A stretch of 64,000 nt of DNA, taken from the NCBI GenBank assembly GCA_947259105.1, contig CAMYKU010000004.1, positions 1-64,000 of the forward strand, written 5' to 3'. Shown here in pieces: positions 3,152 through 11,318 of this stretch. Positions within the stretch are counted from its first letter, which is position 1. Each line of letters starts with the position of its first letter. The notes under the pieces were generated by a model that saw nothing but the letters and a program-made list of their open reading frames with translations, had not been told where the DNA came from and did not search any database. Origin of the DNA: an uncultured Alphaproteobacteria bacterium. Lineage in GTDB: Bacteria > Pseudomonadota > Alphaproteobacteria > UBA8366 > JADFVY01. The translations under genes were made by a program, and so were the position numbers.

Positions 3152-6100
3152 TCAGAGCAACTCGATGCTGCCGTCGGGATTGAGCTGCACCCGGTCGCCG
3201 GTCGCGATCCGCTGCAGCACGCCGCGTGCGCCGACCACGGTCGGCACGTTGTATTCGCGCGCCAGGATCGCCGCATGGCTGAGCCAGCCGCCGATCTCGG
3301 TCACCACGCCGGCGACCCGCGGCAGGGCCGGCGCCCAGGTCGGATGCATGAAGCGGGTGATGAGAATCTCGCCGTTCTCGAGGGAGTCGAGAGAAGTGCC
3401 GGTCGCCACCCTTGCCTTGCCGCTGATCGGCGCGTGACCGGCGACGAGGTCGCCCTTCAGCAGCGCCTCATGGCCGTTCAGGGCACGCTGCTCGCCATCG
3501 AGGGACAGTTGCTCCAGGTCGAACGGCGTCAGGTCGGACGGCATCGTCGGCAGGCTCGCGAGAATTTCCGCCGCTTCCTGCCGCTGCTCGATCGTCACCC
3601 GCGCCGCCTTCAACGCCGCACCGTCGCGCAGCTCGGCGATCTCCTGCCGGGTCAGATAGAAGATATCGTCGTCCAGCCCCAGACGCGCCGACAGGGCCAG
3701 CAGAATCCGGCGGATCACGGCGAGTTCGCGCAGGCTCTGGTGCTTCGCCTCTTCCTTGAGAAGCTGGAAATTGCCGGCCCGCTGGACGCACAGCCGCAGC
3801 GCCTTGTCGCCCGGCGGCCTGGCCTGGAGCTTCTTCGCCGATTTCGCGTCGTGCGACGCTGCGACGAGTTCCTCGACCAGTTCCGGCGATTCCATGTAGC
3901 GCGGATCGGCGACCTCGTAATCGACCGGCGCGCGGTGGCCGAACAGTTCGAGGAAGTCGCGCGGCTTGGCGCGGCCCGCCTTGACATCGGCAAGCAGCGC
4001 CATCGCCCGGTTGACCACCGTCGGCGGCATGGTCGAGAGATACTCGGCCGCGGGCAGGCCACGCTTTGCCAGCTGCCGCTCGGCCTGCGAGAAGTAAAAA
4101 TTCGCCGCGATATTGATGATATGGGCCTGCACGTAGTTTTCGGTGATGAACCGCGTGCAGACATGATCGAGCATCGAGAACAGCTCGGTCTCGTTGAACT
4201 TGATGAAATCGACCAGTTCGTAAACCCGGATTTCCTCGTCCAGCACCGGCAGGAACTTGTTCCAGAACCGGTCTTCGATCGCCGGCGCCATGCGGGTCAT
4301 GCGCAACGCCGTCAGGAAGCCGCCCGATTTCCGCATGCGCCGCTGTTCCTCCAGCCGGTTGACATACAGCGCGCCGAATACCGAGGTCACGAAGGGCGGG
4401 TCGTCCTCGCCGACGTCGTAGCGGATGCCGAGACCGCGGCATGCCATGTCCATGGTGCCGCCGGGCTGCCACATCTCCTCCATCAGCGCCAGGCTGAAGG
4501 GCGTCGGCCGCGGCAGCAGTTCGGACAACTCGTTCTGCACGAAGATCGCCTCGTCGGGGCGGGCGCCCATGGTCAGCGCGAGCAGCCGGTGGCGCTCGCT
4601 CTCGAGGAGGCAGGCGCGGGCGTTGGCATCCTGGTTGCGGGCCAGCGCCGTGATCGCACGCGATTGCAGGATCACGAACCGCCCCTTCGCATAGGCCCAT
4701 TCCACGTCCTGCGGACCGCCGAAGAGACTCTCCAGAATGCGCCCGAGTTCGAGCAACGGGGCAAGGTCGATCGGCGGCGACGCCTCGTCCATCAGCTGGC
4801 CCGAAAGACGGCCGAACTCGTACGACGTGGCGTCCGCGGTGCCGTCGACGACGCCGACTCCCAGGCCTTCGGCCAGCTCCACCAGGATGCTGCCGCTGCG
4901 GCCGGGATGCTCGGTGAACATCACGCCGGCATATTCGGCGTCGACCATCTTCTGGACGACGATGGCGCCGTTTTCGCCGGACTGTTGACCGTAGGTGCTT
5001 GCGGAATCGGCCCCGAACGACTCCAGGACGCGGCGCAGCGCGTCGCGCAGCCCGTCCCGCTCGACGTCCAGCACGGTCTCGAACACGCCGGCATAGCTGC
5101 GGTCGTCGCCGTCCTCGTTGAGGCCGGAGCTGCGCACCGCGGCGCGGTCGAAGCGCATCTTCTTCCAAAGCGCGTCGACCAGCTTCCAGTTCTGCGGCGA
5201 CAGGACGTCCGCACCGCCGGACCCCAGCGCATCGCAGGTGACGACGAAGCCATCGGGAACCGCGATCCCCGCTGCGGCGATCTCGGCCAGATTGCCGCCC
5301 TTGCCGCCGGCGAGGTCCGGCCGCCCGGCAATGTCCTTGAACGCGCAGACCTGGACGACCTTGCCGCGCGGGGCATCCTGCCTCTCCGTGCGGCCGGAGG
5401 TCCCTTGTGCGATCTCGACGCGGGATCGGATCCACATGCTCTGCAGGGCCATCAGGCCGATGCTGTATACGAGATAGAGGTTGACCGCGCCGCTGATCGG
5501 GATCGTCACCAGCGCGAGAAACGCGGCCGCCAGAAGCCGCAGGGTCGTATAGACCAGCGACGGCTTCGCGGCGGCGGATTGCAGGTGCAGGAACACGAGC
5601 GTCCCGAGCACCGCCGGCAAGGCCAAGATCGGATCGGGGCGCGAGATATCCGGTACCCACAGGAACTCCACCGGGAATTCTCGGGCCACCGCATCGACCG
5701 CGAAGAAGAACGCCAGGAACAGCGGAATCTGGATGACGATGCCGATCATGTTCAGCCCGGGCGTCAGCTTGTGACGCCCGTTGATCACCCGCATGGCGCG
5801 ACCCAGCCGCACCCGGTCGGCACCGATACGCTGCTTCAGGTCGGCCATTTCCGGCCCAATACGGCGCATCACGGCCTGGTCGCGCTCGGCCTTGGCGGTG
5901 AGCGGGAAGACCAGCAGGCGCAGGCCGAGAACCACGAAGAATATCGCCAGCGTAATCGAACCGGTCACCCCGGCCGTGACCCGCAGCAGCGCCGCCAGGG
6001 GCGCGCTCACGAAGTCGAGCAGGCTTCTCGACCGGGCCGCCTCCCACTGGGCGACATGGGCGCGCGAGGACCCGGCCACGAAATACTCGTGCGGCACCGT

Positions 6101-7249
6101 ATAGCGGCCGAGATACTCGAAGCCGGCCCGCGACAGCCGCAGGCCGAGGATCTTGGCGTAGAAGCAGCTGCGCTTGTCGTAACAGGGGGCGATGACCGGG
6201 GCCTGCGGCAGGGCGTCGATCGCCGCGTTCATGTCCGCCGTCGTCATCTTGCGGATCGGCATGTTGATGGCGCCCGGCAGGTGACCTTGCCCGAAATCCT
6301 CCGGATACCGGACGTCGATGAATGTGACGTTCCGCTCGGCGACGTACTGCGCCACCTCGTCCGTGTCGAGCAGGACAGCGTCGTTCCCATAGGCCGGCAG
6401 GCCGCGCAGTTCAGTCACCGCCGCGCCCTCGAGGCCGGCGACATCGCGGTTCTCCGAAAGCCATTTCTCGAATCCGCCGACGACGAACTTGCAGGGGATT
6501 CCCTTGGCCACCAGCTTCGCGCACGTCTCCGAACTGCGATTCCCAGAAAAGCACAGGAGCACGTTGGTCTTGTTCTTGCGCACCCCGTATTTCCGGAAGT
6601 TCGCCGTCAAATCGGGATAACGAACCTGGGCGAACTGGGGCAGGTGCCCGGCCTCTTTTTCTTCCGGCTCGCGCAGATCGATGAGATTGACGTTGCTCTT
6701 GCCGTCCGGCCCGACGTCCGCGAGCAGCGCTTCCAGCTCGTCCGTCGTCATGCCGGCGGGATGGCTGACCTGATCGCTGTAGGAGAGGGTCTTCAGCGAG
6801 GTGTCGCCGACGTTCTGGCCCTTCTCGACCGACGGGCGGATCAGGGCCGCTTCCAGCCGCTGGTTCCGCACATCGGTCGCATGGGCCCACAGCAGAACGC
6901 TGATGACGGTTGCGGCGACGACGGCGGCCGCCAGGCCGCCGATCAGCCATCGCGGTGCGCCGCCAGCGCGCCGCCGGTCCGCCGCGGGTGCCTTGACGTG
7001 CTTCCGCCCGAAGAAAAGGCCGCCGAGCGTCACCGAAACCATGCCAAGGATCTGGCCGGCGCTGGACAGGAAATTGACGGCGAGATCCGGAGACGGGATC
7101 GCCAGTGCCGGCCCCGCAGCCAGCAGAAAGAGAACTCCGGCCAGCGGTAGCGACAGCCGAAGCGGCGCGCCCGGCGAACGTTCACCGCGCCGCCGGGCTT
7201 GCGGACCGATGCCCGCCGCCCCGTAAAGTGCTGCGTTACCCTGCTTCAT
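3152..7249 (-). CDS. rhodanese-rhodanese-YidC/Oxa1-like-PEP-synthase-type phosphotransferase fusion
   Basis: One uninterrupted 1365-residue frame. Residues 31-121 hold two or three hydrophobic segments. Rhodanese 1 (about 165-270) keeps the active loop LLCFSGNRSS with Cys233; rhodanese 2 (about 292-395) has APCYDKRSC with Cys356. Residues 412-608 look like a YidC/Oxa1 insertase core with five hydrophobic segments; Arg444, five residues before PLT, matches the groove arginine of YidC. Residues 630-870 are an ATP-grasp PPDK_N domain (LAGGKGGNLAE, AAVRSSGLNEDG, SYAGVFET, PQDVEWAY, LQSRAI). After a central region (about 870-1250) comes the swivelling domain with GGWLSHAAILAREYNVP; His1325 is the phosphohistidine. 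The PEP/pyruvate TIM barrel of PEP synthase is absent, so the order ATP domain-unknown domain-His domain resembles rifampin phosphotransferase. Predicted membrane-bound; substrate unknown. Confidence 0.88.
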   Translation of the reverse strand: MKQGNAALYGAAGIGPQARRRGERSPGAPLRLSLPLAGVLFLLAAGPALAIPSPDLAVNFLSSAGQILGMVSVTLGGLFFGRKHVKAPAADRRRAGGAPRWLIGGLAAAVVAATVISVLLWAHATDVRNQRLEAALIRPSVEKGQNVGDTSLKTLSYSDQVSHPAGMTTDELEALLADVGPDGKSNVNLIDLREPEEKEAGHLPQFAQVRYPDLTANFRKYGVRKNKTNVLLCFSGNRSSETCAKLVAKGIPCKFVVGGFEKWLSENRDVAGLEGAAVTELRGLPAYGNDAVLLDTDEVAQYVAERNVTFIDVRYPEDFGQGHLPGAINMPIRKMTTADMNAAIDALPQAPVIAPCYDKRSCFYAKILGLRLSRAGFEYLGRYTVPHEYFVAGSSRAHVAQWEAARSRSLLDFVSAPLAALLRVTAGVTGSITLAIFFVVLGLRLLVFPLTAKAERDQAVMRRIGPEMADLKQRIGADRVRLGRAMRVINGRHKLTPGLNMIGIVIQIPLFLAFFFAVDAVAREFPVEFLWVPDISRPDPILALPAVLGTLVFLHLQSAAAKPSLVYTTLRLLAAAFLALVTIPISGAVNLYLVYSIGLMALQSMWIRSRVEIAQGTSGRTERQDAPRGKVVQVCAFKDIAGRPDLAGGKGGNLAEIAAAGIAVPDGFVVTCDALGSGGADVLSPQNWKLVDALWKKMRFDRAAVRSSGLNEDGDDRSYAGVFETVLDVERDGLRDALRRVLESFGADSASTYGQQSGENGAIVVQKMVDAEYAGVMFTEHPGRSGSILVELAEGLGVGVVDGTADATSYEFGRLSGQLMDEASPPIDLAPLLELGRILESLFGGPQDVEWAYAKGRFVILQSRAITALARNQDANARACLLESERHRLLALTMGARPDEAIFVQNELSELLPRPTPFSLALMEEMWQPGGTMDMACRGLGIRYDVGEDDPPFVTSVFGALYVNRLEEQRRMRKSGGFLTALRMTRMAPAIEDRFWNKFLPVLDEEIRVYELVDFIKFNETELFSMLDHVCTRFITENYVQAHIINIAANFYFSQAERQLAKRGLPAAEYLSTMPPTVVNRAMALLADVKAGRAKPRDFLELFGHRAPVDYEVADPRYMESPELVEELVAASHDAKSAKKLQARPPGDKALRLCVQRAGNFQLLKEEAKHQSLRELAVIRRILLALSARLGLDDDIFYLTRQEIAELRDGAALKAARVTIEQRQEAAEILASLPTMPSDLTPFDLEQLSLDGEQRALNGHEALLKGDLVAGHAPISGKARVATGTSLDSLENGEILITRFMHPTWAPALPRVAGVVTEIGGWLSHAAILAREYNVPTVVGARGVLQRIATGDRVQLNPDGSIELL

Positions 7250-7423: not shown

Positions 7424-9046
7424 TCAGGCGGCGCGGATTTCGCTCAGGAAGCCCTCCACCGCATCGAACAGGCTGTCCGCCTGCTGCGAGACTTCCCGCG
7501 ACGCGGTGAGCACCTTGTTGGCCGCCTCGCCGGTCTGCCCGGCGGCCTTGCTGACGCCCCCGATATTGGCGTTCACCTGTTCGGTGCCGTTCGCCGCCTT
7601 CGCGACCCGCAGCGCGATCTCCTGGGTGGACATCCCCTGCTGTTCGATCGCCGAGGCGATGGTCGTGGCGATCTCGTTGACCTCCACGATGATCTCGGTG
7701 ATCTTGTCGATCGCGCCGACGACATCGCTGGTTTCGTCCTGCACGGCGGTGATCTGCCGCGCGATATCCTCGGTCGCCTTGGCGGTCTGGTTGGCGAGAT
7801 TCTTGACCTCCTGCGCCACCACCGCGAAGCCCTTGCCGGCCTCGCCGGCGCGTGCCGCCTCGATCGTGGCGTTGAGCGCCAGCAGGTTGGTCTGCCCGGC
7901 GATCTCGTTGATCAGCGTCACCACCTCACCGATCTTGCTGGCCGTCGCGGACAGGCTGTGCACGGTCTGGCTCGTCGACTCGGCCTCCTGCACCGCGTGG
8001 GCGGCAACTGTGGCGGACTTGTTGACCTGGCGGCCGATCTCGGAGATCGAGGCCGACAGTTCCTCGGCCGTCGTGGCCACGGTCTGGACGTTGGCGGTCA
8101 CCTCGTCCGAGGCCGAGGTAACGGTGGCCGACTGCCGGCTTGTCTCCTCGGCGGTCGACGACATCTCCTGCGCCGTCGCCTCCATCTCGGTGGCGGCCGA
8201 CGTCACCTTGTTGGCGACGCCCTTGACCGCCTGCTCGAAGCGGTCCGCAAGCTCCAGGACGGAACCGCGCTTCTCTTCTTCGGTACGCTGTTTCGCCAAT
8301 GCCTGCTCGAGCTCGAGGCTCATCTTCTGCTCGGCGTTTTCCTTGAAGACCTGGACGGCCCGCGCCATGTCGCCGACCTCGTCGCGCCGGTCCACAGAGG
8401 GAACCAGCGTCTCGAGTTCGCCGCCCGCCAGCGCCGCCATCGCCCGCGCGATGCCGCGCAGCGGCCGGGTCATCATCCGTAACGCACCGGTGACGGCGGA
8501 AAAGACGACGACCAGAATGAACGCCAGCAGGAACAGGCCGCCGATGACCATCGTTTGCAACGAGTCACGCAACCGCTTTTCGGAGAGGACGATCGTCAGC
8601 GTGCCGACCCGCGCGCCCGCATCATTCCCGGCGTCGTCGCGATTGCTCTTGTGCACGATTTCGCGCGTGACCGGATAAATCGCGGTGTCGTTGTCGCCAA
8701 GCGGCTCGCCGAAGGCGGCGATCTCCTTGCCGTTGGCGCCTTCGACCGCGGCAAAGCGGAAATCCGGATCCTTGGTCAGGGTTGCCAGCATGCTGGCCGC
8801 CTGCTCGAACTCGAAATCCCAGATCGGCCGGGCGAGCCCTGCCGACTGGACGTCGGCGAGGAACTCGGCCCGGGACTCGAGATCGGCCCTACGGTCGCTA
8901 TGAATTAGGTACATGGCAACCGCAACGGCGGACACGAAGACGACGGTAATGGCCGCCGAAATCAAGACCTGCACCTTGGCGTGCAGCGAGAGCCGCAGGC
9001 CTTTTCGTATGCGAAGTGCGGTTGCGTCTGTATTCATAGGCTGCAT
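7424..9046 (-). CDS. methyl-accepting chemotaxis protein
   Basis: A 540-residue transducer. TM1 (about 25-47) and TM2 (about 165-187) enclose a small periplasmic sensor of some 115 residues containing RPIWDFEF and [12 protein letters not shown], a pattern common in small sensor domains. A HAMP domain follows (about 188-242), then the long helical signalling region with the hairpin tip [20 protein letters not shown]. The start at 9046 is preceded by GAGG eight bases away. It lies 44 nt downstream of the PhnD-like binding protein gene on the same strand, so it may report the ligand of that protein to the chemotaxis machinery. No che genes are in the window. The 174 bases behind it hold no gene. 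Confidence 0.95.
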
Positions 9047-9969: not shown

Positions 9970-10511
9970 TCTGAAATCCTCCAAACAATTGAATTCCCGC
10001 ACCCTTCCAATTGCCGGAGACCAGCGCGCCTCAACCGAAGCTCAGAACGCGTGGCAAATTGTCTAAAATTCTCTCCAATACTTCCTTGTGTTCGATGAAT
10101 CAACATCGAACGGAAGTTTTTTCTTGGCAGAGTAAACAACGTTGTAAAAATGACATTATTCCCGGATCGTTTAACATTCTATAAATCGCCTAACAAAGTG
10201 CTAACCGAGCTGTCCGGTGCACCCTCATTTTCGGGCTTCCAGCAAGCGAACCCGCCCTTTTGGGGACATCCAAGCGGGCTCGACATCAGACGATGCAATA
10301 TGTGGGCCAAGTCTTGGTAATATTATGAGGACTGCAGGGTTTGGAAGTGCCTTGACTTTGGTTAATAAAATACCGCGCGGCCTGTGCCGGAGCCACGCAT
10401 CGTGATGGCGACCGCACGGTGTATGGCCCCCGCAGCGCATTCGCAGCAGATCGCTGGACCGGCGTGCCGCGCGGTGGCATCCTTTGCGGAACAGTGTGCG
10501 GGGAATGGAGC
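9970..10511. other. gene-free, AT-rich divergent intergenic region
   Basis: About 540 bases between the divergent PhnD-like and DUF1194 genes. It is much richer in A+T than the rest of the window between about 10050 and 10200 and near 10310-10370. I see no open frame with a plausible start and ribosome site. It contains the hairpin with a T-run described at 10080-10125 and must hold the promoters of both flanking genes, which I could not assign with confidence. Confidence 0.6.
10080..10125 (+). terminator. intrinsic-terminator-like hairpin on the + strand
   Basis: Arms GTTCGATG (10090-10097) and CATCGAAC (10104-10111) are perfectly complementary with a six-base loop; the stem is extended by ACTTCC (10080-10085) pairing with GGAAGT (10112-10117) around a four-base bulge, and TTTTTTCTT follows. 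This is a textbook rho-independent form for + strand transcription, yet no + strand gene precedes it. It could end an unseen small RNA antisense to the PhnD-like leader or could be structure in that gene's 5' untranslated region. Confidence 0.5.
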
Positions 10512-11318
10512 ATGGGACGGTGTCTTTCCGCGGTGCTGCTGTTGCTGGCGAGTCTGATGCTGCCGGCCGCGGCGGCGGCCGACACGCCGGTCGATCTCGA
10601 GCTGGTCCTGGCGGTCGACGTATCGCTGAGCATCGACGTCGCCGAGGCCGGGCTGCAGCGCGAAGGCTATATCCAGGCGTTCCGCAATGCGGAGGTGGTC
10701 CGCGCCATACGGTCGGGCATCCTTGGCCGGATCGCGGTCACCTATGTCGAATGGGCCGGGCCACATCAGCGCCGGGTGGTGGTCGGCTGGACCCTGGTCG
10801 ACGGCGGCGGGACGGCCGAGGCCTTCGCCAGCGCGCTGGAGCTGAGCGCCCCGGGGTCGGCCCGGCGCACCTCGATCAGCGGCGCCATCGATTATGCGCT
10901 CCCGCTGTTCGCCGGCAACGGGTTCGAGGGCACGCGCCGGGTCATCGACGTCTCGGGAGACGGCCCGAACAACGGCGGCGGCCTGGTGACGGGTGCGCGC
11001 GACCGGGCGGTCGCCGCCGGCCTCACGGTCAACGGGCTGCCGATCCTCGACGACAGCGGCGGCATGTACTCGTGGTACAACATCCCGAACCTGGACCTGT
11101 ACTATCACGACTGCGTGATCGGCGGGCCCGGCGCGTTCATGGTCGTGGCCGAGGATTTCCGCGATTTCGCCCGCGCCGTGCGCCGCAAGCTGATCCTCGA
11201 GATCGCCGGAACGATGCCGCGGCTGATGGCGGCGCAGTTCGCGCGCGACGAGCGCGCAAGCCCGCCCTGCGACATCGGCGAACGCCTGCGCCAGACCCGC
11301 GAGGAAGAGGATTTCTGA
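10512..11318 (+). CDS. DUF1194 (von Willebrand A-like) secreted protein
   Basis: A 268-residue protein with a signal peptide (MGRCLSAVLLLLASLM, cleavage after AAAADT or nearby). The mature part starts VDLELVLAVDVSLSID, in which DVSLS is a MIDAS-like metal site of a von Willebrand factor A fold, and it keeps SGDGPNNGG later on. This matches the DUF1194 family, common as a single-copy periplasmic protein in alphaproteobacteria and without an established role. The start was set by the signal peptide and a GGAG a few bases upstream; a longer frame from 10419 lacks these. Stands alone, divergent from the PhnD-like gene. Confidence 0.87.
   Translation: MGRCLSAVLLLLASLMLPAAAAADTPVDLELVLAVDVSLSIDVAEAGLQREGYIQAFRNAEVVRAIRSGILGRIAVTYVEWAGPHQRRVVVGWTLVDGGGTAEAFASALELSAPGSARRTSISGAIDYALPLFAGNGFEGTRRVIDVSGDGPNNGGGLVTGARDRAVAAGLTVNGLPILDDSGGMYSWYNIPNLDLYYHDCVIGGPGAFMVVAEDFRDFARAVRRKLILEIAGTMPRLMAAQFARDERASPPCDIGERLRQTREEEDF

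Follow-up and report, generated by a model that had tools for sequence, protein, structure and literature searches.

A YidC/Oxa1-like membrane core and two rhodaneses fused to a dikinase of the rifampin phosphotransferase type: a candidate enzyme of a periplasmic-ligand system in Proteobacteria and Myxococcota

A fusion gene with two rhodaneses, a YidC-like core, and a dikinase half

We analyzed a stretch of 64,000 nt from an uncultured alphaproteobacterium (assembly GCA_947259105.1, contig CAMYKU010000004.1, positions 1 to 64,000), hereafter the window, with emphasis on one gene near its beginning. This gene (3152..7249, minus strand) is one unbroken frame of 1365 codons, extending from an ATG at 7249 to a stop codon at 3154-3152. 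It encodes two rhodanese domains, a YidC/Oxa1-like membrane core, and three domains of the type found in rifampin phosphotransferase (RPH), i.e. ATP-grasp, middle, and phosphohistidine domains. Each part comes from a known fold family, and the fusion is an RPH-type dikinase with a membrane half and a periplasmic half. The initial annotation, made from the sequence alone, had recognized the single frame and had given it in plus-strand coordinates, whereas it is read from the minus strand. Its division of the protein into two rhodaneses, YidC/Oxa1-like part, ATP-grasp domain, and phosphohistidine domain agrees with the Pfam matches, all of which exceed the curated cut-offs, with profiles of PDB structures, and with AlphaFold models searched by Foldseek. 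The family alignment places Cys233, Cys356, Arg444, and His1325 at the positions that had been named.

The fusion occurs in several lineages and is under purifying selection

Proteins with the same domain order in a single frame, for which a search had been proposed, were found in Alphaproteobacteria, Gammaproteobacteria, and Myxococcota as well as on Roseobacter plasmids, with identities of 33-77%. The 77% relative is encoded on the complete chromosome of a Rhodospirillales metagenome-assembled genome (MAG), which is a single contig. Other homologues have identities of 55%, 52% (partial), 39 and 38% (Granulosicoccaceae), and 33-43% (further alpha- and gammaproteobacteria). A 43% homologue from a Myxococcota MAG (L022:1337-6172) carries additional PilZ and GAF domains at the C-terminus, suggesting that this protein may be controlled by cyclic di-GMP (c-di-GMP). 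The fusion is rare, with 2 of 385 genomes across the class, 3 of 398 across the phylum, and full fusions in 3 of 321 genomes of the class to which locus L023 belongs. It is present on 82 plasmid records from Phaeobacter, Leisingera, Tritonibacter, Parasedimentitalea, and Ruegeria. The copy of P. inhibens DSM 17395, PGA1_RS19240, is located on pPGA1_262, and strains cured of this plasmid grow well (PMC5421792); the fusion is therefore dispensable in culture and is not an essential insertase in this species.

The unusual architecture is the only point in favor of an assembly or frameshift chimera of adjoining genes. This explanation is ruled out, with a residual probability close to nil, because unrelated genomic sequences, among them complete plasmids and the single-contig chromosome, encode full-length homologues in one frame, and because every domain is under purifying selection. 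In the comparison with the 77% relative, the ratios of non-synonymous to synonymous substitution rates (dN/dS) were 0.12-0.23 for the rhodanese, YidC, ATP-grasp, middle, and His domains. The sole loose part is a fast-evolving linker at residues 613-632 (5354..5413, minus strand, like all features of the protein given below), with a dN/dS of 0.75. The substitution pattern thus shows that selection acts on the fusion as a single protein, the halves of which are joined by a flexible tether.

RefSeq names the fusion only "PEP/pyruvate-binding domain-containing protein", and our literature search found no published description of the architecture or the system, as the initial annotation had supposed. 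An origin from phages or defense systems was dismissed, as no relative was found in viral contigs, PADLOC has no family for the fusion, and the only PHROG match was a weak one of a kinase to the His motif. The Lachnospiraceae matches (L025-L027) were set aside, as these loci have separate RPH-like genes and no YidC/rhodanese frame alongside. In L025, the locus for which the genes were listed, two RPH-like genes have genes for membrane proteins and for an AMP-ligase-like protein as neighbors, and the loci possibly represent an unrelated biosynthetic cluster.

Predicted topology and the periplasmic rhodaneses

A signal-peptide-like stretch (residues 33-51) is directly followed by the motif AIPSPDL, which is invariant in a six-member alignment. 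The weakly hydrophobic segment with this motif (residues 50-82; 7004..7102) is, from the conserved motif and the hydropathy, the predicted mature start. Hydropathy and charge also indicate a transmembrane helix at residues 102-120 (6890..6946), preceded by a loop rich in lysine and arginine that was taken as cytosolic. A hydrophilic stretch of 289 residues contains the rhodaneses and is followed by the YidC helices, which include a basic loop assigned to the cytosolic side. On the basis of these features, the rhodaneses are predicted to be periplasmic and the dikinase is predicted to be cytosolic. The rhodaneses would thereby occupy the place of the P1 domain of YidC, which in E. coli is poorly conserved and not essential (PMC4124156).

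The rhodanese family (PF00581) matched in two stretches (9.5e-19), and both assignments are backed by invariant cysteines and by Foldseek. Rhodanese domain 1 (residues 169-265; 6455..6745) has the six-residue loop CFSGNR beginning with Cys233. Rhodanese domain 2 (about residues 290-398; 6056..6382) has the six-residue loop CYDKRS beginning with Cys356 and followed by Cys362, and both of these cysteines are invariant in the family alignment. By their residues, both loops appear to have kept sulfurtransferase-type active sites.

The YidC/Oxa1-like core

YidC/Oxa1 proteins are known as insertases. Residues 433-608 of the fusion (5426..5953) match the 60KD_IMP/YidC family (PF02096) with an E-value of 4.6e-20 and 72.7 bits, compared with a cut-off of 35, and five transmembrane segments are present. 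With a profile of the N-terminal half built from 12 family members, residues ~405-614 align with all five core transmembrane segments of E. coli YidC (4.6e-26), and Arg444 falls on Arg366. A Foldseek search with an AlphaFold model of the N-terminal half (pLDDT 76, pTM 0.44), which was used for domain identity alone, retrieved the E. coli and B. halodurans YidC proteins (~206 columns at 3.5 Å) in addition to tandem rhodaneses. The alignments behind this model and that of the C-terminal half contained no plasmid sequences.

The groove residue Arg444 is a strictly conserved positive residue, present in all 14 fusion sequences. At the position of E. coli Tyr517, all fusions have a leucine (Leu593), and at that of Thr362, they have valine, isoleucine, alanine, or serine. 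The pair Thr362/Tyr517 is thus not kept, and the score for TIGR03592, the family of bacterial insertases, is 77.0 bits, below the cut-off of 84.3. In E. coli YidC, T362A and Y517A inactivate the protein (PMC4124156), and the groove arginine becomes indispensable precisely in those variants in which residue 517 is apolar (PMC8920935). The fusions combine the retained arginine with a leucine at position 517, i.e. the very condition that makes the arginine essential in E. coli, and a hydrated groove has therefore likely been kept.

In a tree with 15 canonical YidC cores of related alphaproteobacteria (canonical gammaproteobacterial cores were not included), the fusion cores form a single clade with a support of 100/100, and they thus appear to share one origin. 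The mean identity is 0.34 in the YidC part versus 0.45-0.53 in the ATP-grasp, His, and rhodanese parts. The host genome encodes a separate housekeeping YidC. Of the insertase-like membrane part that had been proposed initially, the YidC/Oxa1 core and the groove arginine are well founded, whereas the relation to insertases is one of resemblance only, given the changed 517 and 362 positions and the YidC encoded elsewhere.

The dikinase half

The ATP-grasp domain (residues 633-868; 4646..5353), with K650, R706, E712, E850, Q862, and R864, was identified by Pfam (PPDK_N, 2.8e-35), an RPH profile, Foldseek, and invariance. The middle domain, i.e. the putative substrate domain (residues 869-1265; 3455..4645), was assigned by Foldseek to RPH and by invariance, and has the motif K1165-E-x-x-K1169 at block 9 of RPH (PMC4844700). 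The C-terminal phosphohistidine swivel domain (residues 1266-1365; 3155..3454), with EIGGWLSHAAI containing the invariant His1325, matches the PEP-utilizers family at residues 1291-1357 (8.8e-20). Pfam gave no match to the phosphoenolpyruvate (PEP)-binding TIM-barrel family, and together with the C-terminal position of the His domain this sets the protein apart from PEP synthase and pyruvate phosphate dikinase. The absence of the barrel and the RPH-like domain order had both been anticipated by the initial annotation; Pfam, profile, and Foldseek results agree on the order. The best match of the family profile of this half was Listeria RPH (6e-69), and an AlphaFold model (pLDDT 82.7, pTM 0.79) aligned with Listeria RPH across all three domains (Foldseek, E 1.2e-32). 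The architecture is thus of the RPH type, i.e. ATP-grasp, substrate domain, and C-terminal His swivel without a barrel.

In RPH, the placement of ATP is due to Lys22 and Arg117, His825 is the phosphate carrier, and the second transfer relies on an Arg-Glu/Lys block (PMC4844700). The residues that are equivalent by alignment, K650, R706, H1325, and K1165-E-x-x-K1169, are invariant in the fusions; in the latter motif, a lysine replaces the arginine of RPH. Among the 14 to 12 fusion sequences that cover the respective positions, C233, C356, C362, R444, K650, R706, E712, E850, Q862, R864, K1165, K1169, and H1325 do not vary. For comparison, a stand-alone relative of the dikinase part (L053:8692-11325:-, genome G1159) has neither the rhodanese part nor the YidC part and has lost K650, E712, Q862, K1165, K1169, and H1325. 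It lies directly behind the gene of a hybrid kinase, which it overlaps by 4 bp, and the input domain of this kinase matches those of the fusion-associated sensors described below. The stand-alone protein is a candidate pseudoenzyme regulator, and the retention in the fusions of residues that it has lost suggests that selection has kept the fusions catalytic.

The fusion is clearly separated from the RPHs that inactivate rifamycin, with 158.6 bits for the equivalog model NF041857 versus a cut-off of 999, and with ~20% identity to Listeria RPH in the structural alignment versus the >42% expected for a member. As the middle domain has diverged, a substrate other than that of RPH is expected.

A binding protein and a membrane sensor are the conserved partners

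Directly upstream of the fusion gene, at a distance of 174 bp, lies a gene for a methyl-accepting chemotaxis protein (MCP) with a HAMP domain (7424..9046, minus strand; Pfam and neighborhoods), and a further 44 bp upstream one for a PtxB/PhnD-like periplasmic binding protein (PF12974; 9091..10002, minus strand; Pfam, PDB profiles, alignment, and co-occurrence). Binding proteins of this kind, 44-84% identical across loci, and a sensor adjoin the fusion in several lineages. The sensor is an MCP in the window lineage and related MAGs, a hybrid kinase in Granulosicoccaceae and, divergently encoded, on the Roseobacter plasmids, and a PAS-GGDEF-EAL protein in G1027. In two genomes (G604 and G801), the pair of binding protein and sensor is present but unlinked to the fusion. 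The binding-protein subfamily occurs in 10 of the 13 fusion genomes; one of the other three, G003, is a broken assembly. Among the 385 genomes of the class, it is found in exactly the same 2 as the fusion (Fisher p 1.4e-5; p 0.003 without the ascertained genome). Judged by neighborhoods and co-occurrence, the conserved partners of the fusion are the upstream binding protein and the membrane sensor.

The initial annotation had missed this pair and had instead named two LssY_C lipoproteins as possible partners. The tandem genes (480-1799 and 1804-about 3000, listed to 3276, minus strand) encode proteins with a mutual identity of 39%. None of the other fusion loci examined, including that of the 77% relative, has an LssY_C gene in its vicinity, and the partnership was rejected. 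The matches of 66.7% obtained there stem from the overlong start of the LssY open reading frame; the listed start of the upstream LssY_C gene, which overlaps the 3′ end of the fusion gene, is probably too early.

The input domains of the kinase, hybrid-kinase, and GGDEF-EAL sensors are homologous to each other (E 1e-12 to 1e-64), and the outputs therefore appear to have been swapped on one input domain. The MCP sensor domain has no detectable relation to the sensor domains of these proteins, and the idea of one sensor family for all was thus abandoned; it holds only for the kinase and GGDEF sensors, the MCP input being too diverged for a judgment.

Two further observations concern the binding protein. 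In G006, a second copy of the subfamily has its own sensor kinase (L068:9306-11682), and nearby is a fragment of a PEP-utilizer domain that is degenerate and interrupted by a stop codon in frame (C73:21939-22139), perhaps the remains of a second system. In the window, a DUF1194 protein gene (10419-11318, plus strand) is divergent from the binding protein gene.

The ligand of the binding protein

In profile searches against the PDB, the binding protein is nearest to PtxB and PhnD. The phosphite pocket of Te_PtxB consists of Y55, Y100, S130-T131-S132, H160, and the capping Y208 (PMC5700983). Four of these positions are kept, i.e. Y88 (Y55), S164 (S130), T165 (T131), and H194 (H160). Three are changed, i.e. 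F134 (Y100), I166 (S132), and K237 (Y208), and all are invariant in eight relatives. The pocket is hence not that of the phosphite binder, and the ligand would be a tetrahedral oxyanion or a phosphonate/sulfonate-like compound other than phosphite. SoxB was found in 8 of the 13 fusion genomes (it is below the family cut-off in the other 5) versus 6 of 57 others of the class, which is a weak hint at sulfur oxyanions or thiosulfate.

Proposed mechanism and alternative explanations

We consider the chances about balanced that the fusion is an RPH-type, membrane-anchored dikinase serving as the enzymatic third part of a periplasmic-ligand system, together with the binding protein and the sensor. 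After removal of the signal peptide, helix 102-120 is predicted to export the two rhodaneses to the periplasm, in place of P1. The five-helix core would follow, and the three domains of the dikinase half would be positioned in the cytosol by the loose tether. The gene association and the precedent of AioX-AioS suggest that an anionic ligand is captured by the binding protein, which signals this to the sensor that accompanies it (MCP, kinase, or GGDEF-EAL protein). Outside, a ligand that bears sulfur or is an oxyanion may be processed or sensed by the rhodaneses, and the groove may pass a polar or amphipathic compound to the cytosolic side, or relay the state of the rhodaneses. Going by the invariant catalytic residues, the dikinase would convert ATP into phospho-His1325, AMP, and inorganic phosphate, and would then transfer the phosphate to a small-molecule acceptor in the domain of residues 869-1265; a membrane-associated substrate is possible. 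The firmer steps are the topology, the role of the binding protein and sensor, and, within the last steps, the competence of the dikinase; the substrate, the direction of information, and the use of the groove are what we infer beyond them. It is a tentative possibility that an insertase fold has come to serve an enzyme of group translocation, or a receptor enzyme, as its membrane part, in which case a ligand handled by the rhodaneses would pass, or signal, via the groove to the dikinase. The phosphorylation may be coupled to uptake or may serve signaling alone.

Several points weigh against this proposal. The model of the N-terminal half is of moderate quality and does not fix the relative placement of its domains. 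The divergence of the middle domain from RPH is too great for a substrate to be named. The system is not always complete, as the fusions of G899 and G1094 come without the binding protein. SoxB accompanies the fusion in only part of the genomes, and this association may be due to relatedness and genome size.

In a pure signal-transducing receptor enzyme, the rhodaneses would sense sulfane sulfur, the redox state, or the loaded binding protein, the YidC-like helices would relay the signal, and the dikinase would make a phosphorylated small molecule as a messenger or phosphorylate a protein. The constant company of sensors with chemotaxis, phosphorelay, or c-di-GMP turnover outputs, the PilZ and GAF domains of the L022 fusion, and the retention in G1159 of a paralogue without catalytic residues next to a kinase from that sensor family all agree with it. 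However, in the characterized RPH and HpeHI, small molecules are what the middle domain of the RPH type binds (PMC4844700, PMC12167813), no messenger is known from the dikinase fold, and both rhodanese loops retain sulfurtransferase-type active sites. We regard a receptor of this kind as rather unlikely. The odds are clearly poorer for a dedicated insertase, whose YidC core would insert a specific membrane protein of the system under regulation by the other domains via phosphorylation and sulfur chemistry. We know of no precedent for an ATP-dikinase that regulates membrane insertion, a normal YidC is present in the genome, and conservation is lower in the YidC part than in the ATP-grasp, His, and rhodanese parts. 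The invariant groove arginine and the five complete core helices would fit such a role, as would the inability of E. coli YidC to lose the arginine when residue 517 is apolar, as Leu593 is here (PMC8920935), but the fusions have retained neither Thr362 nor Tyr517, both of which E. coli YidC needs for activity, as shown by their exchange for alanine (PMC4124156).

An equally improbable explanation is a detoxification or resistance enzyme with an RPH-like phosphorylation of a toxic compound that crosses or resides in the membrane and is announced by binding protein and sensor. It draws on rifampin phosphotransferases being the nearest solved relatives and on the location of the Phaeobacter gene on plasmids with the pathway for the antibiotic tropodithietic acid (PMC5421792). 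Against it stand the large distance from the RPH equivalog cut-off, the absence of resistance genes among the neighbors, and the finding that the Gammaproteobacteria and the window organism have only the binding protein and the sensor in common; it is unsupported.

Implications and comparison with known systems

In the fusion, the YidC fold has become a stable component, with an evolution of its own, of an enzyme that spans three compartments and is co-inherited with a sensor pair, and, by predicted topology and residues, the catalytic sites would be intact on both sides of the membrane. That the system represents a new kind is a real possibility. Should a small compound be carried or sensed by the groove, this would widen the range of the YidC fold and add a new sensing-phosphorylation system in marine and other bacteria. 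Group translocation, if true, would mean a new ATP-driven transmembrane phosphorylation system with its own binding protein and an exchangeable sensor. The fusion is open to genetics, as it is encoded on a curable plasmid of the genetically tractable P. inhibens DSM 17395.

Such a group translocation would be analogous to the sugar phosphotransferase system, to which the membrane part of the fusion is unrelated. With RPH (Listeria, 5hv1/5fbs), HpeHI, RedH/PigC, and RPH-like "PEP synthases", the fusion shares the three-domain order, and with RPH the equivalents of Lys22, Arg117, and His825 as well as a Lys-Glu-x-x-Lys motif at the catalytic Arg/Glu/Lys block 9. In contrast to RPH, its dikinase is tethered to the membrane behind a YidC core and two rhodaneses, and its middle domain has diverged. 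The five-helix core, the basic cytosolic loop, the groove arginine, and a score above the Pfam cut-off are common to the fusion and the YidC/Oxa1/Alb3 insertases, whereas the two rhodaneses in place of P1, the leucine at Tyr517, the loss of Thr362, and the separate clade are not. Tandem rhodaneses/thiosulfate sulfurtransferases (1yt8, 6mxv) likewise have two rhodanese folds with six-residue loops and a cysteine in both. In the fusion, both domains keep this cysteine, the second loop, CYDKRSC, has an additional invariant one, and the domains are predicted to be periplasmic and part of a larger chain. Finally, the binding protein encoded beside a membrane sensor is an AioX-like arrangement, as in AioX-AioS-AioR and other systems that pair a PhnD/PtxB-type binding protein with a membrane sensor. 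In contrast to AioX-AioS-AioR, the output of the sensor linked to the fusion varies between MCP, hybrid kinase, and GGDEF-EAL, the binding pocket has a lysine in place of the capping tyrosine of PtxB, and the third component is the fusion enzyme.

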